Assembly: GCA_963575645.1 (NCBI GenBank)
Contig: OY754468.1
Span: 26,312,465-26,376,464, forward strand
Length of the DNA: 64,000 nucleotides
Reading direction: 5' to 3'
From: Xanthostigma xanthostigma
Lineage: Eukaryota; Arthropoda; Insecta; Raphidioptera; Raphidiidae
Shown piece by piece: positions 6,847 through 56,444 of this stretch. The position numbers were made by a program, and so were the translations under genes. The notes under the pieces were generated by a model. It worked only from the letters and a program-made list of their open reading frames with translations, searched no databases and was not told the DNA's origin. Each line of letters starts with the position of its first letter. The first letter of the stretch is position 1.

Positions 6847-9800
6847 ATGTATACGGTATGTAAATTGATTTTTTGATATTTTCTGAAATCTTTGACACTA
6901 GAGTCATTTTACGTTAACCAGATAACCTATTAGTATAGATAAAATTTCTATTATTTTTGTTTTGTTTTACAGGTATACAGAATATGTTTTTTTATATTAT
7001 TTGTGTGCATTGATATATCTTTACAATTTTACGTACCTGGCGTTGCACCTGTTGAATTTAAAAAAGGACAACACATAGAGGTAAAGGCGGTCAAAATGAC
7101 AAGCACACACACCCAATTACCTTACGAATATTATTCACTACCATTTTGTGTCCCGAGAAACGGCACGTTCATATTCAAAAGTGAGAATTTGGGGGAAGTT
7201 TTGCGCGGTGATAGAATCGTCAATACACCTTATGAAGTAAGAATGGCTGAAAATGTCAAATGCAAATTGTTATGCCACAAAGTTGACAGTCCTATAAATT
7301 GGAACGGTGAAGAGTCTCAGAAAGTCATGAACAGAATTCAGCATGAATATTTTGTACATTTGCTGATCGACAATTTACCAGCAGCTACTAAAGTTGTAAA
7401 TACAGAGACGCAAGAAATACAATACGAACACGGTTACCGATTGGGAACAGTGATCGGTGGAAAAAGTTATATAAATAACCATTTGAAATTAATATTACAT
7501 TACCATATGCACGAAATGTATGTATTGAGATTCTAATCTCACCAATGAAGAGTCGCTTGTAATAATTCTTTAAAAAAATTTTAGTGATACATATCGAGTT
7601 GTAAGATTTGAAGTAGAAGCACAATCGATAGACTTGAATGAATACACTTTTAAAGGCGATACTTGTAGCTTCTTTGACGATGCTAAAAGACAAGAAGTGA
7701 ATGGCCAAGTCGGTACCAAACTGTATTTTACATACTCTGTGGAATGGCATAAATCAGACGTTAGTTGGGCGTCACGCTGGGACATTTATTTAGGAATGAG
7801 TGATGTGCAAATTCATTGGTTTTCAATTGTCAACTCGTTGGTTGTCGTGTTTTTCTTGTCAGGTATTTAAATAATTAATTATAGCTACATACTACTAATT
7901 AATAATCTAATGGGCAACAATATCAAAGGTAAAAAATGTATGTAAGTCAGCTAGCCTTGTCGAATTTTATGTAAATGTGGAGTTAAAGATCTCCGAATAT
8001 TCCTTACCGTCGTTTTGCAGTGAGAACTCATAAAATAGTATTATGTGTACTGTTGGATTTTTAAAAGAAGACCGGTCTATGGAATGTAGTCCTATGACCT
8101 TATTGCAGAAGAGCGCACATGTATTTTATATTAGTAAAAGGTAATGATCCTGGAACAGCTTCTATGCAAACCAAACGTATCACAATTGTGGTATCGCGAT
8201 AATTGTACTATTGCCATAGCCGTACGACTATACAGCGACACTTGCTAACAGTACAAAAAAATCATACACCAGACAGTACATAGGCGTGCGTCCACGGACT
8301 AAGTTGAGGGGTGTTGTCTGAATATCATCAAAATGGAAAGTAAAAAGGGAAAAACAGTTAGAAGTGGCGCTAGGGAGATCATAGCGAATGTAATTAAAAT
8401 GTGCGAGTTAGAGGCTCAAAATAATGCCGTAAAATTTAAAGCTATACATTGTTTGCATGCCTTGCTATGCGCCGCCTATGAATTCCGATAATTTGGGAAC
8501 ACATCAGCGACTTCTTGCCCTTTCCCCACCGGTCTTCTTTCGCCGATCGCACAGTACAAAAGCTTCAATTTAATATTGAAATTACCTTTTGAAAATAATT
8601 GCCGATAATTCATATACTTATACTTAGCAATATTAATATAGGCAGCAGTTTTATGCATGGGACGGGTATGTATAACGTCGTTTTATTGCTTTGCCGCTCT
8701 ATTAAGTCTGTTAATAACTATGTATAACTCATTTCACAATTATTTTTATACTTTACATCGATTTGGCTCACAGAATACGTTTTTGTTTTTCTCTTTACTA
8801 GGAATATTAACGATGATTATGGTAAGAACTTTAAGAAGGGACATCGCCCGATATAATGCTGACGAAGGAATGGATGAGGCAATCGAAGAGACTGGTTGGA
8901 AACTTGTCCATGGAGACGTATTCAGACCACCAAAACATACAAGATTTTTTGCCGCTGTTATTGGAAGTGGCATCCAGATATTTTTTATGGCTCTTATAAC
9001 CATCTGTAAGTGTTGTTGGAGAATCATTAATTTTTTTTTGGAAAATATTTTATGATGATTTGTGTCATGCTAATACCGAGAATGCTTTAGGCATTCGCTG
9101 AGTTAAACATATTCTCAAACTATCTGAAAATTACCAAAAAAATAGTCCAGTTTTAGATTCTGATGTAAAAATTTTTATTTATACGTATGATTTGTTTTTT
9201 GTTTCAGTCTTCGCCATGCTCGGCATGTTGTCGCCAGCATCTCGCGGAGCACTAATGACCGTTGCAATATTTTTGTATGTTTTCATGGGTTTGATCGCCG
9301 GTTACTTCTCCGCGCGCCTTTATAAAACAATGAAAGGCCGTCAGTGGAAACGGGCTGCATTTCTAACGGCATTTTTATATCCAGCAATTGTTTTTGGAAC
9401 TTGTTTTGTATTAAACTTTTTTATTTGGGGAAAACATTCTAGTGGCGCGGTACCGTTCTCAACAATGATGGCGTTATTATTGATGTGGTTTTTTATTTCT
9501 CTACCACTCGTATATTTAGGTTACTATTTCGGATATAGAAAACAGCCTTACCAACATCCAGTGAGAACAAACCAAATTCCTCGACAAGTTCCAGATCAAT
9601 TGTGGTATATGAATCCCGTTTTATGGTAAGTTGACAGTTTTTTATGTTTGTATAAAACGAATGAATTTTTAAACTGAATGAAGTTTTAACTGTATGTATT
9701 TTTAATTATTTTTTCAGCACATTAATGGCAGGGATTTTACCATTCGGGGCTGTTTTTATCGAACTCTTTTTCATTTTCACAGCGATATGGGAAAATCAAT

Positions 9801-11578
9801 TTTATTATCTATTTGGTTTCCTATTTCTCGTTTTCTGTATTCTTGTGATATCGTGTTCTCAAATATCAATTGTTATGGTGTATTTTCAACTATGTGGAGA
9901 GGTAAAGTTGTTTATTCTACTGGATGCAACAAAGATGAACTAACATGTTACTCAGACTATTCTATAAATGTAAATTAGTTCATCTTTGTAACTTCCTGAA
10001 AATATATTTCTTATCCCTTTGCAACGAATTCTATATGGGCGTGACTATTGGCAATTTTTTTAACTTCCCGCTTTAAAAAAAAAAAAAAAATTTTTTTTTT
10101 CAAAAATCGGGAAGTTATTGGTTTCACCCCGATTTTCGAAAATCGAGTTTTCGCCAGATCTCGACGTTTTGAGGTCCTAGGAAGCTATTGAAACTATTTT
10201 GGCGATGATGTCCGTAGGGCTGTATGTATGTATGTGTGTGTGTATGTATGTATGTAAACCTTTTATATCTTTTGAACGGAGTGTCCGACTGAAACGCGGT
10301 TTGCGGCATCTGACGTGATCTTGGTGAACTTAGACTTCCTGAAAATTTGAAACGATTCGGCCCAAAAAATTTTGAGAAATCTTAAAAAAACAAGTTTCAA
10401 AAATTTTTAAAAATTTGTTTTTGTAAAAAATTTTCTAAACTACTAAACCGATTAATTCCAAAAACTAATCAGCTCTTCTCCTTAACAAACTGCGTCGATT
10501 TCCGCAAACCGCATCAAAATCGGTTCATTTGTTCACGAGAAACCGTGAACGAAAAAATCGTAAAAAAATGTTTTTTTAAAATGACTCTTAAAATTGTTAT
10601 CAGATTAATTTTTTTGTAATAAATTACTTTCTTAAGCTAAAAAAACTGTGTCGATCGCCGCAAACCATATCAAAATTGGTTCATTTGTTCATGAGATAAC
10701 GTGAACGAAAAATTAGAAAAAAAGTAATTTTTTAAAATTACTCGTAAAATTCTTATCAAATCGACTTTTAGGTTAAAGAAACTGCGTCGATTGCAGCAAA
10801 CCGCATCAAAATCGGCTCATTTGTTAAGAGATATCGTGAACGAAAAATGTTTAAAAAGTGTTTTTTTTTTTAAATTGCTCGTAAAATTCCTATGAGATCG
10901 ATTTTTCTGTATTAAATTACTTTTTAAGGTTAAAAAATTGCGTCGACTGCCGCAAATCGCATCAAAATCGGTTCATTTGTTCATGAGATATCGTGAACGA
11001 AAATTTCGTAACAGTGTTTTTTTTTTGAGCTAGAAGAGTTAAAAAATACACTTCTTGCGATATTTGATATATTTTTGAGCGTTTTGAACTCGAAAATAGC
11101 GGGAAGTTACAGGGATGGCTTGCAGGGTCAAACTACTTTTCAAATTTTTTTTGCTGCAAAACAGATTAATTTTTGTGCACGAAACCGGTTTCGCAGTTAT
11201 TTCATGCAGGTTATAATTTTTCTAATTTCTTTGGTCCCTAATAATTAATTAAAACAAAAATAGTTTCTCTGGTTGTAAAGGGTTATGCATAAAAAGAAAA
11301 CATTGATTTTGATTTGTTTTTTTTTTTAAATTTTTAAGGATTATCATTGGTGGTGGCGGAGTTTCATTGTGTCCGGCGGTTCGGCTGTCTACGTTTTGGC
11401 GTACTCAGTTTTCTATTTCATGACAAAGTTAGAAATAACCGAATTCATTCCAACGCTCCTGTATTTTTCGTACACCGGACTTATGGTTTTAACATTCTGG
11501 CTGTTAACAGGAACGATTGGATTCTTCGCAGCGTACGCATTTATTCGAAAAATATATGGTGCCGTGAAAATAGACTAA
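6847..11578 (+). CDS. TM9SF4: Transmembrane 9 superfamily member 4 (nonaspanin), complete
   Basis: Seven coding exons: 6847-6855, 6973-7517, 7585-7862, 8802-9005, 9208-9625, 9718-9901 and 11339-11578. All have GT-AG borders and matching phases, and together give 625 residues (human TM9SF4 is about 640). The three-codon first exon MYT joins [12 protein letters not shown] to form a signal peptide before FYVPGVAP, the usual mature N-terminus. The lumenal domain keeps [21 protein letters not shown] and FEHGYRLG-like (YEHGYRLG). The nine-helix C-terminal half keeps [49 protein letters not shown] and DYHWWWRSF. It ends IYGAVKID, matching the KxD-type COPI/Golgi retention signal of nonaspanins. The family works in Golgi/endosomal sorting of membrane proteins; in Drosophila it supports phagocytosis and adhesion. 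The ATG choice rests on the signal peptide it completes. Confidence 0.95.
8333..8491 (+). pseudogene. Possible transposase N-terminus remnant in TM9SF4 intron 3
   Basis: A 52-codon open frame begins [17 protein letters not shown] and ends with TAA. The S-x-A-R-E-I-I-x-N-V pattern resembles the N-terminal segment found before the helix-turn-helix of some insect DDE transposases. No catalytic part follows. I treat it as a decayed transposon fragment; chance similarity is possible. Confidence 0.35.
10061..11109. mobile_element. ~1.05 kb non-autonomous element with internal repeats, TM9SF4 intron 6
   Basis: The ends are inverted: TAACTTCCCGCT at the left and AGCGGGAAGTTA at the right. Inside, a block of the form GCGTCGAnTnCCGCAAACCGC / ATCAAAATCGGTTCATTTGT / GTGAACGAAAAA recurs four times, near 10490, 10648, 10782 and 10938, in degenerate copies. 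A (GTAT)n run lies near 10222-10256. There is no long open frame. It fills most of the last intron (9902-11338). Confidence 0.75.
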
Positions 11579-20787: not shown

Positions 20788-20987
20788 TAAATCGTTATCT
20801 CAATAAAGCGGTGAGTACTTTACATTATGGACATATATAAATCTTATAACATAAACATGAGACATTTTGTAACTATTAAAATACTTATTTAGAGACAACG
20901 ATGATACAAAAAAAAGAAATGGTTATGATTTTAAATTTGACATTCAGTTCACGTGTGTAATAAATCTTGTTTTATTTTTTAGAGAAG

Positions 20988-23900
20988 ATGAGTACTTCAC
21001 TTTTAGAACAACTTAAGGAGCTTCGAGTGCCACAAACTTTACAACTCTCGTTGGATAAAAAGCGGCCATCGTTACTTTTTGATCCCAAAGAAGCTGCAAA
21101 TTTAAACCGAAGAACTGTCTATGAAATTGGAAGAAGCGGTTTTGATGAACTTTTGAAAGTAAACGACAGATTCCAAGAATTTAATTCGACACTGTTTCAT
21201 TCTTCTTCGATCAATGTCGAACGTTCAATGCTATCATCCGCAGAAAATGATGAACTTAATAAAACTATTAATAAATTTCTGCTAACACTTTCGCCATATT
21301 TTATGTTGAAATCGTCACACAAAGCTCTGGAATGGCTAATACATAGATTTCATATAAACGAATATAATCGAGATGACATTCTTATGTTAATTCTTCCCTA
21401 CCATGAAACGAACATATTTGCACGTTTTCTGCAAATAGTACGCGTTAAAGGTTCAACAAATAAATGGAGATGGTTATATCGCCTTCAAAAGCCTGGAATC
21501 GTTTTGGCTAAATCAATTCTAATTAATCACTGCGCTAGCGATGTATCATTTCTACAGTTTGTCTGTAAGATGACGCTTGCAATAACCCAGCTATATGAGG
21601 ATGAAGCTAAACTGTTGAAAGTGTTATATGCATTTTATTGTATGACAGTTTTGGGAGCACTAAACATATCCAAAACGGTTACCGAACAACAAGTAAACCA
21701 ATTGTTACCTTCTGTATTGAAAGGCCTTTCGTCAGAATGCGAAGACTTTAAAGCTAGTGCATGTATGATTACAGCACAAATGATCGTTAAAACAAAATTA
21801 TCGATTAAAGTCCTTGAAAAACTCATCCACAAAATTGTATCGAATAGCGAAGTGTTGAATACCGAAGGAATTATGTTATTAGTTCTTATATACCAGAGTC
21901 ATTTACCAGATTTCAATACCGTTCCATCGAAAACTTTAAACAAAATAATTCAAATGGATGATTTTCCAGTTATGCTTGTTAGAGTTGCAATGACAAAAAC
22001 AAGGATTGCACCTTTCCTTCTGACGCTATTTTCTGAATTATTAAATATGATTCAAACTTGTGAAGAAATAGAGAGTGCAAAGAAATTCGTTGAAAATTTG
22101 TTGACTGAAATTCAACTCGATAAACGTACAGCATGCTTGTTAATTCGGTGAGTAAAGTTTTTTGTTTGTTAATAATTTAAGAACTATTTTTTGACGTGAT
22201 AACGTCTTATAAATTGATGAAACACCGGCTGCATGCACGAAAAAGTGTAACGTTCTGAAAAAGTGTCCGTTCCGCCTGAGCGTGCAAGCGAGAGCGCGAT
22301 ATAAGCGATAGAGGCACGATCTGCCCAAGTTTGACAGCTACTAAAATTTATTTATTAAAGATCACAAGACACAAACTTCCAATAGACTGCCACAGTTCGC
22401 TCGTATATATACTTACAGGGAGTGAAAAATCCACACCACCCTACCGTCCATTTATTAAAACTGCGTGTATTTTGAAAACGGTTCATTATATTTAAAAACC
22501 GTTTATACAGTTGGTTAGAACTCTAATTTTACTATTTAAATATGTAAAAATAAATGTTTGGAAACGTATACGTATAATGTGAAAAATAAAAAAAGTTATT
22601 TTCCAACACTTTACGAGTATGGTGTGTATAGAAATACCTATAATAACTGTAATTGATTTCCTTAATAATTTTTAATGTTTCTTTATGACGTTATCACGTA
22701 AAACTATCGTCCGTAAACCGACTTTACAGACAACCAATTTTTTTTATATTATTACAGTATTCTATTGTTAAGTCAATACTTCCAACCCTTCTCTTCGATA
22801 ATTTGATGTTTTCAACATACTCGATAAGTCCCTGCTCCTGCACAGCGTTCCTTCTTGCTATATATAACTTGTGACTGTCGGTTAGTATTCAATGCATCTC
22901 TGATTATCATTATATTGCTGTTTTAGGTTATCAATTGAAAACTACAAAATTGGTATTGAAAACAACCAGCCTGACGATTCTACTGAAATTGTGCAGATCT
23001 GCTTGGACGATGAAGACATTCGCATATGGTACTCCAGTTTCATGAAACGTCTTGAAACAAAATATCCTGAAGCGTTCGATGAGGTTATTTCGCAAGTAAT
23101 GAAGTCTGATGATTTTAATAATCCCCAAAAGGCAGCTATACGTGTACTCCTTAATTTTGTTCCATCTATGATTTATAAAATAGGTGGTACGGATTTGTTT
23201 CAAAAACTTAATCACCCAAATGATCATATCAGAGCTGAAGCAGTTAAGTTTATTATTGAGAATCCAAATTCTTTAAAGGGTAAAAATTTTGAATACCTTA
23301 AAGAATCATTGTTAGACAGATTAAACGATGACAGTCCCATTGTGGTAGAACAATTTTTTCAACGAGATGTTGATATCTTTGATCTGTTTGATCAAAACGT
23401 ATTAGTACACACTTTGACTAATTTACTTAAAAAATGTTTCAAAAAGAAATCAGAATGGGGAGGTTTAATGGGCAAACTTATATTATTGTTTACTAATAGA
23501 GCTCCTTTTGATGTTAAAAACTTATCTATAATTTTCCCTTTTATAATATCAGGAGATGCTAATATCGTTTCAGGAATTGTAAAGAGTAAATTTGGTAACA
23601 GCTCATTAATTTTTAGAAACCTAAGAAAAATTTCAAACGACTTAAGTCTTAATAGAAAAAATGAACGTATCGGCGCTGCTTTTTGTGAAAGTATGTTTAG
23701 CAAAGATTGCTTAAGCGAAGTAAATAACCTTGTTGATTCGCTCGATAGTATTCCGGATACTGATAAAGATACGTTATATAAGTATTTTGGTATTGTTCTA
23801 TCAATAGCTTCGTTATCGGCGAAGAATTCCCCAGAAAGAAATTTAATTATTTTCAATCGGGTTGTGCGTTACATTGAAACATCGTGTGTGTATTTAGTTG

Positions 23901-26900
23901 AAAGCGTACAATCAACGAATGTAAATCAGTGCATGGATCTCATCAGGGCATGCGTTCCGTCTGTATTTGAAGATAAAATTCCATTGCAAATATTTTTATA
24001 TTTTATTAGTTCTTTAATCGAGCGCACTCACATTGAAAATCGCGATACACAGTGGTTAGATTTAGTTAACCCAAATCCATCAACTAAATTTTTAGTTCGC
24101 GTTTATGAAATTTTATTATTTGGTTGTTGTTTAGATGATGGCAAAATGAAAAGTTTATACAGTCATAGATTGAATTTATTTTTAACGAGATTTTTTCCAA
24201 CGTTTCGGCTACGTATTGAATTTTTAAGTAACTTAATCACTTTTTCCAATTTGGAAAACAGTTCCGATAATGAACAGCGTTTTACTTTAAATCCAGAGCT
24301 GTTGTTATGTACTATTCGTATAATAAATTCTTTACTAAATCAGTCAAATGAACCTTGGAGTTGGCTTCTCGACTTTGAGCCAAACTGCTGCGTACCGATT
24401 TTACTTATATCGTTGACAAATCCACTGGCGGCCATACGCAGGGCTGCGATGTCGACTATTGAAACGGTCGTCGGATCAATTACATCCAGATGGAAATCAG
24501 ATTCATATTTTCATTTGTTGGACGCTGTCGCAAAAAGAAAACATGAAATACTACTTGACAGTGAGCAATTACCTTTAATATTATACTTATTGACATTGAA
24601 AAAGACAGTTCAGAGAGCTAAGCTAAAAGCAAATCTCTTGATAAATTCTTTGAATAACATGATTGATTTAGTTTGCGATAATTCAGTTCCATTACATATT
24701 AAGGCGGGGCTCCTAAACTTATTAGCTCAAATCAATTCGCCAGTAATATTAACAAAAATGTCTTCAATCGCTTTGGGATTACTCGAAAAATCATCGCAAA
24801 TGACAGCCAACAGTTGTATGACATTATACGAATCAAAAATATTATGTAACATTTTTAATCGTATAAATATATCGACATTACATAAAATCAATGGCACGTC
24901 AATGATATGGAAAATGATAAAATCGGGATGTAAACAACATCGTGTTTTTATTTTATCTGAAAATTTTGTATATGTTTGCCCAGCCGTTATTTTATTCAAT
25001 ACAATTGATAAACAGATATTTGAGATGTTTCCTGATGATCTCCAAACGGAATTTATTGAAATTTTAATTGAAATAAGTACAGATTCAGAGAATTCGGACA
25101 TTACGAGCTCAGCTTTCAAATTTATTAAGCGGATCGAATTAAATTGTAAATCGCTATTGGATGTTTTGGATAAAATGGCTAAAGTTAGAGATTTATCTGA
25201 AGAAGTGTCTGGAACGAAACGCAGATCACGTCGTATATTAGCGCCTTCGTTAAAAACGATTGACACGCCCGAATGGAAATGTGGTATCACAGCGTTGGAA
25301 TTCATTCAGAATAAAAAGAAGTTGAGAAATATTAATGCAATCTTACCGGTTCTTTTTAGTATACTGAAAAAATGTTTAGAATTTGAGGAACAAGGAGTGC
25401 TGGAGTATGCAAAACAGTTGGTACTATCTTGTATTTTGAATTGTTGTGAGAAGTTATCACTTACTGGCGATAAATGGGAAGATGCCGATAAGATATCTCA
25501 TGCTTTTAACATAGAGTTAGTTGTACAGTGCATACAAATGACCCATAACCCCCAGACGCATCATCACGCTCTCTTAGTTTTGGCGCAGACAGCTAGTATG
25601 ATACCCGATCAAGTGTTGCATCACATAATGGCGATATTTACGTTCATGGGTTCGTCGGTACTGAGACACGATGACGCGTACAGTTTCCAAATTATCAGTA
25701 GAATTATAGACACGATCGTACCGGTTTTGTTAGATGTAAATAAAGACGACGATCAAGACGAAGAAGAAAACATAGATGGAGTTACGCCCATTCTAAGAGT
25801 TTTTGTCGATGTATTGTTGCACGTACCTGTTCACAGAAGATTGCCTCTGTTTAAGAAACTTCTTGAAAAACTGGACGCGCGTAATTATCTATGGGTGTTT
25901 TTGGCGCTGGTGTTTGAATCGCACGTTGTTCACGGCAATGAAAAACAACCTACCGATAATGAATTACCAGCCCGTCTCGAAGTTGCCAAAAATTTATGTT
26001 GCCTCTTTAGTCCTTCGATAATACTTCATAGTTGCGTAAAATTAGTACATTATCTCAGGGAACTACCGGCTGAGAAAAAAGAACAAGACGTTTCGATGGA
26101 AGTCGACGGTGCAAAAAAATCACCGCTTTTCGATATTCAACAACATACTCACAAACAGTTCAAACACTACAAATATACGATGGTAACATTTTTGTCAAAA
26201 CTTTTGTCTAATCCTCAGTTTGTACGTTTTGTTGCGCTTCTTAACGATGAAGAAACAGTGCAAATGGAACCGTTGTATAAATCGATGATCATCAATACTT
26301 TATCATACATTCAATCGGTATCGAAATGTGCTGACCAATATTCTGATAAACCACAAGGAAAATACTGGAAAGTGATGTTGCATCACGTTTACGATCTTTT
26401 GGATAGTGTTAACATGTTATTGTCGAACGAAATGTTTCTCTTGGTAATTCGGGGATTGATGAAGAATAATACCCCATCGGTGCGGCGAAAAGCGATGGAA
26501 TTATTAAACACGCGGCTGCAGAGGCACGACGACTTCTTCAAAGAGATGAATATGGAAAATTTTGATGAACTGATTCAACTTTTGCTCGGTGTCATAGAAA
26601 CGATAAAAGACGATAATGATTCAATTGAAGTAGAAAATGAATTAAATCAACAAACTGCTTTGATATCGATCAAACTATTAGCTAAGCTTCTAGCGCCCGA
26701 TAATCCTGATAAATTCAAACCTATACTAGAAACCGTGACAAGCGTATTGAAATTAAAGAAAAAAACTGACGGAAATGTGCTCGCTTCGCTAATGCTGTGC
26801 CTAGCGGAATTGTGCAGTAGTTTGAAGGTTCATTCGTTGTATTATTATGGTGGTTTTATGCCTGTGCTACTAAAAATACTGACTACTCAGAGAAACAAAC

Positions 26901-28093
26901 TAACGCCCGATGTTACTGTTCTGAGCGCTGTCACGACCGTTTTGAAAATTGTGGAAACATTGCCGCATTTTCTCAAGCAATATTTAGAAAAATTGCTGTA
27001 TGAAACTTCTTTAATGTGCGAGAAATGGGAACACGATGCAGAAAATCAAAAAGTCGCGCCCGTTATGCAGAAACTCAAATATATAAGGCAAAAAATTGCT
27101 TTATTAGTTCCACTGAGAGTTTTAATTTCCTCAGTTGGTCAGTGCTATAGAAAACTATTGTCTGAAGAGAAGTACGAGGCTGTTGGTAGTTTGATGAATT
27201 TATTAGCCGAAAGTATAAAAAATTTGCAAAACGCGGACTTGACATCTACTTTGCCCGATTTAACTGATTTCTTTTTGATGGCATTACAGTTTAGAGCCGA
27301 TTATTCAGACAAAAATGTTTCACAGCAACAAATAGCTATCGTTGAAGAACATATTGTAGCTGCTTTTATAGCACTTGTGTTAAAATTGTCAGAATCATTG
27401 TTTAGACCAATTTATTATAAAATTTTCGATTGGGCTGCTAGAAATGTAACACAAAAAGACAGGGCTATTACTTTCTATAAGGTGTCGAGTGGTATAGCGG
27501 ATGCTTTAAAAGGGTTATTTGTTCTTTTCGCTGCACATTTCATAAACCATTCAGCAAACTTGTTAGATTCATGTAATAAAATCAAAAGTGAAACGTTGTA
27601 TTTCGAAAGTGAGGAAAAGTGCATTTATTTAGTTGAATATATCATGCAAACTTTGAATTCGGTATTTTTATATGAAACCAGAAATTTCATTAATAGGGAA
27701 CGATTCAATACTCTATTTATGCCTATTGTCGACCAATTAGAAAACACTTTGGGCGGAATATCGATGCTCAAAGAAAGAGCCGAGAATTTAATAATACCCT
27801 GCATAACACATTTTGCGGTAGCCACGGCAGACGACGCGTTGTGGAAACAATTAAACTATCAGATATTGCTTAAAACGAGACACAGTGAACCTGAAATTAG
27901 GTTGTTGAGTTTGAAGTGTTTGTGCGAAGTCGCCAAAAAGCTGGGCGAAGACTTTTTACCACTTTTACCTGAAGTCATACCATTCCTTGCTGAATTGCTA
28001 GAGGACGATGCTGACGTTATTTCAAAATATTGCCAAAAAGTCGTACAGGAACTTGAGAAAGTTCTTGGTGAACCTCTGCAAAAATATTTTTAG
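20988..28093 (+). CDS. HEATR1: HEAT repeat-containing protein 1 / UTP10, complete
   Basis: Two coding exons, 20988-22147 and 22927-28093, join in phase to 2108 residues (human HEATR1 is about 2144). A non-coding first exon ends at 20810 and the acceptor is at 20982. HEATR1/UTP10 is a HEAT-repeat scaffold of the t-UTP (UtpA) part of the small-subunit processome in the nucleolus, needed for rDNA transcription and early 18S processing; the Drosophila counterpart is l(2)k09022. The N-terminus keeps MSTSLLEQLKEL, LLFDPKEAA, ALEWLIHRFHINEYN and ILPYHET. The body is alpha-helical repeat sequence with an acidic patch (DDDQDEEEN). The C-terminal BP28CT-like end keeps LLKTRHSEPEIRLLSLKCL, LPEVIPFLAELLEDDAD and VLGEPLQKYF. 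The second exon is 5.2 kb uninterrupted. The single coding intron holds a repeat element. Confidence 0.97.
22189..22746 (+). mobile_element. GTGATAACGT-ended element, copy A (HEATR1 intron)
   Basis: It begins TTTGACGTGATAACGTC and ends with ACGTTATCACGTAAAAC followed by CGACTTTACAGACAACC. Related copies lie at 50272-50950, 52422-52618 and 52771-53370. There is no open frame of note. Ends share the inverted core ACGTGATAACGT, so this is a MITE family; this copy is diverged from the others in the middle. Confidence 0.8.
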
Positions 28094-28113: not shown

Positions 28114-28163
28114 AAAAAAAAAAACGCTAATAATACAATAGTATTATTAGCGTTTTTTTTTTG
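28114..28163. other. Perfect 23 bp hairpin after the HEATR1 stop
   Basis: A run of A, then CGCTAATAATAC, pairs perfectly with GTATTATTAGCG and a run of T; the loop is AATA. It starts 20 bases after the stop codon, in the 3' UTR. It could be a tiny palindromic insertion or a structured 3' UTR element. Confidence 0.7.
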
Positions 28164-28226: not shown

Positions 28227-28619
28227 ATATTTTAAATATTGACTATTTATAATGTACATTAAATAATATGTTAATTGTAAAATAAAAATTTATATTGTCT
28301 ACTTAAATATTGTAAGTAACTACCTAATTAAATTAAAAAAAGATAAAGTACAGCAGAGCTCCGATTATTTGACATATTGCTTGTTCGTCTCTGCGTTCGC
28401 AATATTATTCAATTGTAAGCCATGTGTGTAATTTATTAATCTCAGCTTTGTTAGATGATCGGAACCTTACTGTCGAACGCATTTAGATATACTTATTTTT
28501 TTTTTCAGAAAATGTTAAATTTTGATTTCGTTGTACAACACTTTGTTAAAATAAATATGAATCATAATAAGTATTGAGAGTAAAATAAATATTATACTAC
28601 CTCTCAAAGCAATCTTTCT

Positions 28620-31600
28620 GTCCACATACCGAATTTGAAACGTATCCGATACATATTCCAGACTTTCCAAAGAAGCGCTTCAATAATCTCATTTTTCGTC
28701 GATTTTCGACATTTTCATAAAAAAACTCACTTTTAGTGTCCAGACGGCTTATAATTAACATGAAATGACACTCCAAATCAAAAAACAAGCCCAACTTTTG
28801 GTTCTGTGGGCATTTCAAGTGTGTTTAAATACCAAAGCAACATTTGAACGTCCTCTATCTCTAAGCTAGGTCCGCTGTCGTCTTCAATCAGTACACCGAA
28901 TTTGAAATGTATCCGATGCGTAATCCAGACTTTCCAGAAAACCACTTCGAACGGGTCTATCTTCGAAACGGTAAGTGATACGAAGCAACCGAGGGGCTCG
29001 GTGACTTCAGCGTGTCATTTTACATAAACCTACCGAATTTGAATCGGATCGGAGACATTGTCCAAAATCGTCTTAAAAAAATCACAAAATAACTATACTA
29101 TGGGAAAAATCGCGTTTTTAGTCGATTTTCAACTTTTTCTAATAACTCACTTTTCTAGTCCACACGACTTATACTAACAGGAAATGACACTCCAAATCAA
29201 AATGTGAGCCCAGATTTAGGTCCTATGGGCATTTGTAATGAATTTTAATGTAGAAGAAACATGTAAGTGCCTATATCTCCGAAACGGTTAAAGATACAGA
29301 CCTCCGGGTGCGCTCATTGAATTCAGCGTGTCGTTTTCTATCAGTACACCGAATTTGAAATGTATCCGATGCGTATTCCAGACTTTCCAGAAAACCACTT
29401 CGAACGGGTCTATCTTCGAAACGGTAAGTGATACGAAGCAACCGAGGGGCTTGGTGACTTCAGCGTGTCATTTTACATAAACCTACCGAATTTGAATCGG
29501 ATAGGAGACATTGTCCAAAATCGTCTTAAAAAAATCACAAAATAACTAAGGCTTACTATGGGAAAAATCGCGATTTTAGTCGATTTTCGACTTTTTCTAA
29601 TGACTCACTTTTCGAGTCCACACGACTTATACTAACAGGAAATGACACTCCCAATCAAAATGTAAGCTCAGCTTTAGGTCCTATGGGCATTTGTAATGAA
29701 TTTTAATGTAGAAGAAACATTTAAGTGCCTATATCTCCGAAACGGTTAAAGATACAGACCTCCGGGTGCACTCATTGAATTCAGCGTGTCGTTTTCTATC
29801 AGTATACCGAATTTTAAAAGTATCCGATGCGTATTCCAGACTTTCCAGAAAACCACTTCGAACGGGTCTATCTTCGAAACGGTAAGTGATACGAAGCAAC
29901 GGAGGGGCTCTGTGACTTCAGCGTGTCATTTTACATAAGCCTACCAAATTTGAATCGGATCGAAAACATTGTCCAAAATTGTCTTAAAAAAATCACAAAA
30001 AACTAAGGCTATAACTATGGGAAAAATTGCGTTTTTAGTCGATTTTCAAGATTTTCCAATAACTCGCTTTTCAGCTCCAGACGGCTTATACTAACACTGA
30101 ATGACACTTCGAATCAAAAAATAAGCTCAACTTTAGGTCCTGTGGGCTTTTATAGTGAATTTCAATGTAGAAGAAACATTTAAACGTCAATATCTCCGAA
30201 ACGGTAATAGATACAGACCTCCGGGTGCGCTCATTGAATTCAGCGTGTCGTTTTCTATCAGTACACCGAATTTTAAATGCATCCGATGCGTATTCCTGAG
30301 TTTCCAGAAAACAACTTCGAACGGGTTTATCTTCGAAACGGTAAGTGATACGAAGCAACGGAGGGGCTTACTGACTTCAGCGTGTCTTTTTACATAAGCC
30401 TACCGAATATGAATCGGATCGGAGACATTGTCCAAAATCGTCTTAAAAAAATCACAAAAAAACTAAGGCTATACTATGGGAAAAATCGCGTTTTTAGTCG
30501 ATTTTCAAGATTTTCCAATAACTCGCTTTTCATGTCCAGACGGCTTATAATAACACTGAATGACACTCCGAATCAAAAAATAAGATCAACTTTAGGTCCT
30601 GTGGGCTTTTATAGTGAATTTCAATGTAGAAGAAACATTTAAACGTCAGTATCTCCGAAACGGTAATAGATACAGACCTCCGGGTGCGCTCATTGAATTC
30701 AGCGTGTCGTTTTCTATCAGTACACCGAATTTTAAATGCATCCGATGCGTATTCCTGAGTTTCCAGAAAACAACTTCGAACGGGTTTATCTTCGAAACGG
30801 TAAGTGATACGAAGCAACGGAGGGGCTTACTGACTTCAGCGTGTCTTTTTACATAAGCCTACTGAATATGAATCGGATCGGAGACATTGTCCAAAATCGT
30901 CTTAAAAAAATCACAAAAAAACTAAGGCTATACTATGGGAAAAATCGCGTTTTTAGTCGATTTTCAAGATTTTCCAATAACTCGCTTTTCATGTCCAGAC
31001 GGCTTATAATAACACTGAATGACACTCCGAATCAAAAAATAAGATCAACTTTAGGTCCTGTGGGCTTTTATAGTGAATTTCAATGTAGAAGAAACATTTA
31101 AACGTCAGTATCTCCGAAACGGTAATAGATACAGACCTCCGGGTGCGCTCATTGAATTCAGCGTGTCGTTTTCTATCAGTACACCGAATTTTAAATGCAT
31201 CCGATGCGTATTCCAGAATTTCCAGAAAACAACTTCGAACGGGGTCTATCTTCGAAACGGTAAGTGATACGAAGCAACGGAGGGGCTTACTGACTTCAGC
31301 GTATCATTTTACATAAGCCTACCGAATTTGAATCGGATCGGAGACATTGTCCAAAATCGTCTTAAAAAAATCACAAAAAAACTAAGGCTATACTATGGGA
31401 AAAATCGCGTTTTTAGTCGATTTTCAAGATTTTCCAATAACTCGCTTTTCATGTCCAGACGGCTTATAATAACACTGAATGACACTCCGAATCAAAAAAT
31501 AAGATCAACTTTAGGTCCTGTGGGCTTTTATAGTGAATTTCAATGTAGAAGAAACATTTAAACGTCAGTATCTCCGAAACGGTAATAGATACAGACCTCC

Positions 31601-33120
31601 GGGTGCGCTCATTGAAATCAGCGTGTCGTTTTCTATCAGTACACCGAATTTTAAATGCATCCGATGCGTATTCCTGAGTTTCCAGAAAACAACTTCGAAC
31701 GGGTTTATCTTCGAAACGGTAAGTGATACGAAGCAACGGAGGGGCTTACTGACTTCAGCGTGTCTTTTTACATAAGCCTACCGAATATGAATCGGATCGG
31801 AGACATTGTCCAAAATTGTCTTAAAAAAATCACAAAAAAACTAAGGCTATCTATGGGAAAAATCGCGTTTTTAGTCGATTTTCAAGATTTTCCAATAACT
31901 CGCTTTTCATGTCCAGACGGCTTATAATAACACTGAATGACACTCCGAATCAAAAAATAAGATCAACTTTAGGTCCTGTGGGCTTTTATAGTGAATTTCA
32001 ATGTAGAAGAAACATTTAAACGTCAGTATCTCCGAAACGGTAATAGATACAGACCTCCGGGTGCGCTCATTGAGTTCAGCGTGTTGTTTTCTATCAGTAC
32101 ACCGAATTTTAAATGCATCCGATGCGTATTCCAGAGTTTCCAGAAAAGAACTTCGAACGGGTCTATTTCGAAACGGTAAGTGATACGAAGCAACGGAGGG
32201 GCTCTGTGACTTCAGCGTGTCATTTTACATAAGCCTACCAAATTTGAATCGGATCGAAGACATTGTCCAAAATTGTCTTAAAAAAATCACAAAAAAACTA
32301 AGGCTGTATATATGGGAAAAATCGCGATTTTAGTCGATTTTCGACTTTTTCTAATGACTCACTTTTCAAATCCACACGACTTATACTAACAGGAAATGAC
32401 ACTCCAAATCAAAATGTAAGCTCAGCTTTAGGACCTATGGGCATTTGTAATGAATTTTAATGAAGAAGAAACATTTAAGTGCCTATATCTCCGAAACGGT
32501 TAAAGATACAGACCTCCGGGTGCGCTCATTGAATTTAGAAGGTCGTTTTCTATAAGTAACCCGAATTTTAAATGTATCCGATGCGTATTCTATACTTTCC
32601 AGAAAACCACTTTGAACGAATCTATCTTCGAAACGGTAAGTGATACGAAGCACCAGAGGGGCTCGGTGACTTCAGCGTGTCATTTTACATAAACCTACCG
32701 AATTTTAATCGGATCGGAGACATTTTCCAAAATCGTCTTAAAAAAATCACAAAATAACTAAGGCTATATGACTATTGGAAAAATCGCGTTTTTAGTCGAT
32801 TTTCGACATTTCCCAATAATTCTCTTTTCTGGTCTTGACGGCTTATACTAACACGAAAAGACACTCCGAATCTAAAAATTCAGCTCAACTTTTGATTCGG
32901 TGAGCATTTGAAGTGTTTTTAAACACCGAAGCAACGTTCGAACGCCTCTATCTCCGAAACGGTTAAAGATACAGGCCTCTGGGTACGCTCATTGAATTCA
33001 GCGTCAGTTTTCTATCTGTACACCGAATTTAAAATGTATCCGATGCGTATTCCAGACTTTCCAGAAAACCACTTCTAACGGGTCTACCTTCGAAACGGAT
33101 GGGCTCAGTGACTACGGCGT
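28620..33120. repeat. Satellite array, ~459 bp unit, about ten copies
   Basis: The marker CGAAACGGTAAGTGATACGA recurs at about 28964, 29417, 29875, 30334, 30793, 31253, 31712, 32169 and 32629. A broken copy is at 33091. This gives steps of about 453-462 bases. Copies between about 30100 and 32160 are nearly identical; outer copies carry many substitutions. Each unit also holds two related halves, both containing CGAAACGGTaA-n-GATAC followed by TTCAGCGTGTC. Repeated 60-90 codon frames on both strands recur only because the DNA repeats; I see no protein family in them. It starts about 400 bases past the HEATR1 poly(A) signal. Confidence 0.93.
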
Positions 33121-33461
33121 TGGCAATAGCAGTGAGCTAATCGAATTGGAAGTTATACATCCATAACCCACTTTCTTAAAATGGATCCAGATTCCGCCTA
33201 TATATTATATAAGAGAAAATGCTCCAAATTCCTTAAATAGCTTATGTACCAAGCGGAAGAAGGATGGGACGATATGGTTTTTTTGTGCGTCAGCTCCTTA
33301 ACTATTAGGAAAGTTTCTGTATGAGGTTCGTAATCGTAAAACAACTTGTATACTGACGTAAATAAAATGTTTTTTTTTTTAATTTAGATTTAGGTAGGTA
33401 CTGTATGAATAATTTAAATATACGTGCATTTAAAATAAAATTATATATACAAAAATTTATT

Positions 33462-54678
<21,217 letters not shown>

Positions 54679-55428: not shown

Positions 55429-56444
55429 TAGTCCAAGAGACGGCTGCAGAAAATGTGTCGTCGTAAGGTGGACGAACGAAAAAATTAGAGATGATAGTTA
55501 AGACCATAATTAAGAAAGATCGCTAAGGTTGCCTGCGAAAATCCTGCCGAAACAATGTTTTTTTAATTTGTTTATCAGTTAATAGACCAGTGAAGTTAGC
55601 TTTTGACAAGGACAAAATTAATAACAGAAAACGAATGATGAGGAAGGAAAGAAACTGCCGTCAGAAATACAAAAACCAAAAATTCAAATGCGTAAAAGGC
55701 CGGAGGGTTGTGGGGGGCGCGTTTTAGGGGTCAAACGTGGTTTTTTGTTATTTCCGGCAAAAGTTGAGCTCCAATCGAAAAATGTTGTATGGCAATGTTG
55801 CAGGTATTAAAAGGATTTACAACTTTTATGAATATAACTTTTTCATATAACCTTAAGATTCAAAGAAATATTGAAAAAACCGTGTTTTTCGTTTTTAAAT
55901 AAAAAATTACAGCTTATTTAGGACATAGAAATGTAAGTCTCCTGAAAATTTCATGAAAAAAAAATCGTTTTTGCAGGAGAAAAAAATTAAAAACGAAAAA
56001 CACGGTTTCTTCAATATTTCTTTGAATCTTTAAGGTTATATTCACAAAAGTTGTAGATCCTTTTAATACCTACAACATTTCTATACAACATTTTTCGATT
56101 GGAGGTCAACTTTCGCCGGAAATAACGAAAAACCGTGTTTGACCCCTAAAACGCGCCCCCCACAGCCCTCCGGCCTTTTACGCATTTGAATTTTTGGGTT
56201 TTGTATTTCTGACGGCAGTTTCTTCCCTTCCTCATCATTCGTTTACTGTTATTAATTTTGTCCTTGTCAAAAGCTAACTTCATTGGTCTATTAACTGATA
56301 AACAAATTAAAAAAACATTGTTTCGGCAGGATTTTCGCAGGCAACCTTAGCGATCTTTCTTAATTATAGTCTTAACTATCATCTGTAATTTTTTCGTTCG
56401 TCCACCTTATGACGACACATTTTCTGCAGCCGTCTCTTGAACTA
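55429..56444. repeat. Very large palindrome, ~1 kb
   Basis: Arms at about 55429-55908 and 55978-56444 match almost throughout, from TCCAAGAGACGGCTGCAG and its mirror CTGCAGCCGTCTCTTGAACT to CCGTGTTTTTCGTTTTTAA and its mirror. The spacer is about 70 bp. No protein family is recognised. Confidence 0.92.

Follow-up and report, generated by a model that had tools for sequence, protein, structure and literature searches.

Immediately 3' of the ribosome-biogenesis gene HEATR1 lies a well-resolved satellite-like tandem array of about 4.5 kb, consisting of nine or so copies of a 459-bp unit, and its layered, partly symmetrical history is legible. The array is an ordinary kind of repeat; what is unusual is how readily its history can be read. 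We think it quite probable that it is a short non-coding satellite-like array shaped by neutral local turnover, as its copies underwent unequal exchange and/or gene conversion with one another. Small enough that every copy can be read and ordered, it offers a compact example of how tandem arrays may grow from their interior, with old variants pushed towards the edges, as has been described for centromeres. By itself the array is a single locus, and probably one without function.

Extent and surroundings of the array

Within the window (the whole 64,000-nucleotide stretch of DNA analysed), TRF describes a tandem array at 28876-33098 with a period of 459, 9.2 copies, 92% matches and a score of 6612. 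The marker CGAAACGGTAAGTGATACGA has nine exact matches, all on the plus strand, whereas 100 shuffles, searched with up to three mismatches allowed, gave 0.01 matches on average. An array with a unit of about 459 bp at this place had been proposed from the sequence, and its presence is confirmed, with two corrections: the original prediction counted ten markers spaced 453-462 bases apart, but only nine are exact, the tenth position (33091) retaining only CGAAACGG, and the measured spacings run from 453 to 460 (in order 453, 458, 459, 459, 460, 459, 457, 460). TRF and the nine same-strand markers both place the copies head to tail. With a model of the M1 and M2 modules described below, nhmmer sets the left limit of array homology at 28615 (E 6.8e-11), while on the right homology fades past 33098, with a sub-threshold match (E 0.03) reaching 33151. 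The G+C content is 38% in four 1-kb windows inside the array, as compared with 31% in the two windows that hold its ends. When the array was compared with the window by blastn (E up to 1e-3), none of the 171 matches fell in the other 59 kb. Past the array edges, four flank comparisons gave a single weak signal, in the left flank read forward (5 of 200 mononucleotide shuffles); this alignment is gapped and A/T-rich and was set aside.

Each full unit is laid out as M1 (about 145 bp; 139-148), X (177-178 bp) and M2 (about 137 bp; 136-138). The units are called u0 to u9 from left to right, and the parts of the array and its neighbour are as follows:

28615..28683, plus strand: partial M2-type module at the left edge (u0); nhmmer with the M1/M2 model, E 6.8e-11
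28685..28861, plus strand: X of u0, edge type E, without a preceding M1; alignment with the nine other X modules
28876..28962, plus strand: M2 closing u0, shortened at its 5' end; nhmmer E 9.3e-21 and alignment gaps
28964..29874, plus strand: u1 and u2, left type I layer; markers at 28964 and 29417, X modules 94.9% alike
29875..30333, plus strand: u3, with type III M1 and type II X and M2; module identities
30334..32168, plus strand: u4-u7, homogenised type II core; four identical X modules, whole units 97.2-99.1%
32169..32628, plus strand: u8, with type III M1, X of the right type I layer and a diverged M2; module identities, M2 clustering alone
32629..33098, plus strand: u9, right edge, type E X, followed by 8 bases from the start of a further M1 that breaks off; X identities
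33095..33151, plus strand: possible decayed array tail; nhmmer E 0.03, under the inclusion threshold
22904..28093, plus strand: large 3' open frame of HEATR1, neighbour outside the array; PDB 7mq8_LM, PF23243, PF08146

The frame at 22904-28093 (1729 aa) is identified as HEATR1 by a match to PDB 7mq8_LM, human HEATR1, with E 5.4e-236 that reaches the last residue of the chain, and by its HEATR1 HEAT and BP28CT domains (PF23243, PF08146); a further frame upstream (20964-22151) carries a U3snoRNP10 domain. HEATR1 is thus the neighbour, as had been predicted, its frame ending at 28093 and its stop lying 522 bases before the array. The essential nature of this gene, to which the earlier proposal had also pointed, plays no part that can be shown, the array lying after the stop codon. 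On the far side, a reading by eye suggests a short last exon on the minus strand at about 33462-33534, behind a poly-T/CAG acceptor, in which case the array would sit between two converging genes. Directly after the HEATR1 stop there is a palindrome at 28115-28162, with perfect 22-nt arms that are partly A/T runs, which may represent a very small foldback or else a 3'-end hairpin.

The array is non-coding by two measures: no stop-to-stop frame of at least 110 aa lies within it, and its unit lengths (453-460) advance in steps other than three, so that no frame is held. As an RNA element it was rejected, since Rfam returned nothing for the array at the gathering score or at E up to 5, and u5, the one unit that was folded, is no more stable than its shuffles (z-scores of 0.45 and 0.04 for the two strands, where 65 and 45 of 100 shuffles did as well or better); no tRNA was found within the window. 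The CENP-B box motif is TTCGNNNNANNCGGG. With up to one mismatch it occurs seven times in the window, where 6.0 are expected, and not at all in the array. The observed/expected ratio of CpG is 1.48 in the array and 1.22 in the remainder, and CpG being undepleted, long germline methylation would seem to have left no sign.

Exact-pattern scans of viral contigs gave 0, 1, 0, 0 and 0 loci, and one such scan of prokaryote genome contigs gave eight; among the best 30 matches, the unit aligns with these nine loci over 16-60 bases at E 0.01 or worse, and they were rejected as relatives, the alignments being at chance level. For an animal repeat only chance matches are expected in such collections, and they carry no information on the abundance of the array.

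Unit anatomy and layering of the copies

The anatomy of the unit is established from its modules. In u4, M1 and M2 are identical at 64 of 90 positions in a gap-free alignment, and for u1, u4 and u9, the units tested, not one of 1000 dinucleotide shuffles attained the M1/M2 score; judged by this resemblance, the two are diverged versions of a single module. An internal two-part ancestry had been proposed for each unit, and to that extent it stands, with the addition of a third module, X, that is not recognisably related. A relationship of X to M was considered and rejected, the low shuffle counts being inconsistent between units: among eight comparisons a single one, that of X with inverted M1, lay above all 300 mononucleotide shuffles, and with dinucleotide shuffles three of 12 comparisons in three units gave low counts, each time a different one (per 1000: 3 for inverted M1 in u4, 17 for direct M1 in u9 and 26 for inverted M2 in u1). 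An HMM of M run against nine X modules found no matches. The left edge has its own order, M2-X-M2, with M1 missing. When treated as a 459-base unit, u0 is shortened and aligns at only 52-56%, and it aligns well module by module; its first module (28615..28683) is 73-82% identical to M2 copies as against 61% for the pair of M1 copies in family D6. This copy may preserve an older M-X arrangement or may have lost M1 by later deletion.

The gradient of identity along the array is established at the level of whole units: u4-u7 are 97.2-99.1% identical to each other, whereas u9 is 81.2-84.7% identical to u1-u8. A near-identical centre with diverged flanks, as originally predicted, is accordingly borne out.

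Among the modules, X holds the clearest history. The four X modules of u4-u7 are 100% identical to each other, and that of u3 is 96% identical to them; those of u1, u2 and u8 share 93.8-97.2% among themselves as against 81.9-83.1% with u3-u7, and the X of u8 in particular is 97.2% identical to that of u2 and 82% to those of u4-u7. The nearest-neighbour distance between X modules is 0.010 in the centre versus 0.110 at the edges. Average linkage at four clusters separates u0; u1, u2 and u8; u3-u7; and u9, an order that is nested along the DNA. In the X tree, ultrafast bootstrap support is 98 for u0 and u9 against the rest, 100 for u1, u2 and u8, and 96 for u3-u7, and these groups have 11, 14 and 8 exclusive states, respectively. 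The pairing of the two edges is weak by identity, the X of u0 being nearly as close to u4-u7 (80.2%; 76.2-80.2% to the other modules) as to u9 (82.0%), and that of u9 standing at 75.1-78.5% to the others; u0 and u9 may therefore represent two separate old lineages.

The M1 modules are layered as well, their three average-linkage clusters (u1, u2 and u9; u3 and u8; u4-u7) again being nested along the DNA. The M1 of u3 is 96.6% identical to that of u8 and 89.0-91.7% to the rest, even though the X modules of u3 and u8 belong to different layers; read from these module identities, u3 and u8 are hybrid units that mark points of exchange between M1 and X. The M2 modules fall into four clusters (u1 and u2; u3-u7; u8; u9), with the M2 of u3 identical to that of u4. 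In this clustering the right-hand type I flank is absent, u8 lying apart from u1 and u2 (90% identity to these, 84-86% to u3-u7) and u8 and u9 each standing single. Outside X the core units are variable, with identities of 96.5-99.3% in M1 and 92.8-99.3% in M2. The homogenised core and the hybrid units are the marks of concerted evolution in a satellite-like array.

Proposed history and alternative origins

We propose that M was duplicated and had diverged before the present M-X-M copies spread. Growth and turnover would then have proceeded by unequal exchange and/or gene conversion among the array's own copies, and successive amplifications in the interior would have left old variants at both edges, younger ones inside them and a near-uniform core. 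Since type I X and type III M1 now flank the core on both sides, at least one exchange would have moved two or more units together. We infer that unequal exchange was the mechanism, and likewise the sequence of these events and a lack of function; the array is most likely neutral.

When unequal exchange was simulated, 61.5-82.6% of runs ended with a centre younger than the edges, which makes a homogenised centre the ordinary result; the earlier proposal of a centre homogenised in the manner of unequal exchange is supported. The nested order was scored as the first and last unit each standing alone at four clusters with one inner cluster flanking the other, a definition that the real X modules satisfy and that was set post hoc, with the data already seen. 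It arose in none of 1675 single-unit runs, and in 0-1.3% of runs per setting when blocks of several units could be exchanged (5929 runs in total: 1949, 2046 and 1934 with maximum block sizes of 2, 4 and 6). In that model, then, a variant that flanks a different core on both sides requires exchange of blocks larger than one unit. The exact nested order is uncommon even with multi-unit exchange (at most 1.3%), which counts against our preferred explanation, as do the departure of M2 from the pattern of X and M1, the weak pairing of the two edges and the missing M1 of the left unit. The simulation is a crude one, starting from four founders of equal divergence, with 4-14 units, gene conversion left aside and only ten-unit endings counted; its figures indicate which kind of exchange can yield the order, rather than how surprising that order is.

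Human centromeres, as described in passages of PMC9549924, have symmetrical alpha-satellite layers whose age increases outwards, and the array shares with them its near-symmetrical layers, homogeneous core and outwardly increasing divergence. In contrast to alpha-satellite, it spans about 4.5 kb rather than megabases, adjoins a gene and has no CENP-B box at up to one mismatch, and a centromere role is unsupported. We suggest tentatively, and with little confidence, that this ten-unit array beside a gene shows near-symmetrical layering like that of primate centromeres and that, should such layering recur in small arrays, repeated block-wise amplification of the interior would suffice to produce it and a kinetochore would be unneeded.

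Local turnover is compatible with another origin, one that we hold possible while not favouring it: as the earlier proposal had it, the array might be a euchromatic seed or relic, the outpost of a satellite that is abundant across the genome, and might have reached this place through transposition, exchange or the insertion of a circle. Short TCAST1 and TCAST2 arrays or single repeats occur near genes in Tribolium castaneum, according to parts of PMC5844308 and PMC3411249, and the non-coding unit and head-to-tail order are in keeping with such an origin. Against it, the other 59 kb of the window hold no second copy, and the internal layers imply a local history rather than the recent arrival of a uniform piece. 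The likeness to TCAST lies in satellite repeats near genes; however, TCAST in euchromatin consists preferentially of single repeats, as opposed to the one ten-unit array here, and TCAST1 makes up 35% of the T. castaneum genome (passages of PMC5844308), whereas the present array is known from one locus. Tribolium is also the precedent for the proposal, very improbable in our view, that the array is transcribed and would affect its neighbours through small RNAs or local heterochromatin: at euchromatic copies of TCAST1 its siRNAs influence histone marks, and they suppress nearby genes for a time (work cited in an excerpt of PMC5844308). That effect depends on interplay with a matching heterochromatic satellite (same excerpt), and the array has no RNA family and, in the one unit folded (u5), no folding signal.

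Another possibility, which we regard as unlikely, is that the array forms the repeat-bearing middle of a mobile element, for instance a non-autonomous Helentron (HINE). In oyster HINEs, two flanking modules enclose short satellite-like arrays (PMC7492417, in part), the present array is likewise a short satellite-like array outside heterochromatic blocks, and the perfect 22-nt-arm palindrome at 28115-28162 lies nearby. Yet the flanking modules with subterminal inverted repeats and a 3' palindrome that mark a HINE were recognised neither near the edges nor among the longest 25 of 74 inverted pairs. A comparison of 28561-28640 with 33081-33200 gave direct matches of at most 6 bases and no inverted ones of 6 or more, and in the longest 25 pairs those joining the left and right flanks have their right arm at 33369 or later, some 220-700 bases beyond the array; several of these are A/T runs, and some coincide with the splice acceptor presumed for the gene that follows. 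Nor do we give much weight to the idea that the near-identical core is in part an assembly artefact, whether by false duplication or by collapse of true copies; this is quite doubtful. The four identical 177-bp X modules of u4-u7 would be difficult for short reads, but these units can be told apart because their M1 and M2 modules differ, and the outer layers resolve well.

Other repeats and features of the window

A second short tandem array lies at 10462-11061, its copies being spaced at 156, 136 and 156 bases. It has no recognisable relation to the 459-bp array, 261 and 291 of 300 shuffles reaching the score on the two strands. It contains CATCAAAATCGG(T/C)TCATTTGTT...GAGATA, which presumably resembles a phrase of many insect repeats.

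Several features of the window resemble mobile elements. The segment at 50270-53371 (about 3.1 kb) has near-perfect long inverted arms of 170, 108, 212 and 97 nt at 98-100% and, as far as its arms indicate, resembles a transposable element of recent origin with long terminal inverted repeats; from its left end 63 nt recur at 52424-52486, and a 92% copy of a right-end piece lies at 22688-22753, between both HEATR1 frames. Direct copies at 34069-35198 and 43441-45268 (about 1.1 and 1.8 kb), piecewise 78-96% alike and with an (AT)n run in each, are probably a repeated mobile element. Foldbacks are found at 55429-56444 (413-nt arms, 95% complementary, with a 190-nt loop), 41591-42332 (242-nt arms, 94%) and 538-1231 (166-nt arms, 86%). 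Finally, Rfam matches snoU6-53 at 9047-9132 with 36.6 bits, barely above the cut-off of 36; an EMP70-bearing frame (8642-9055) ends within the match and the following one (9102-9629) begins there, so that it would lie in the presumed intron separating the two.
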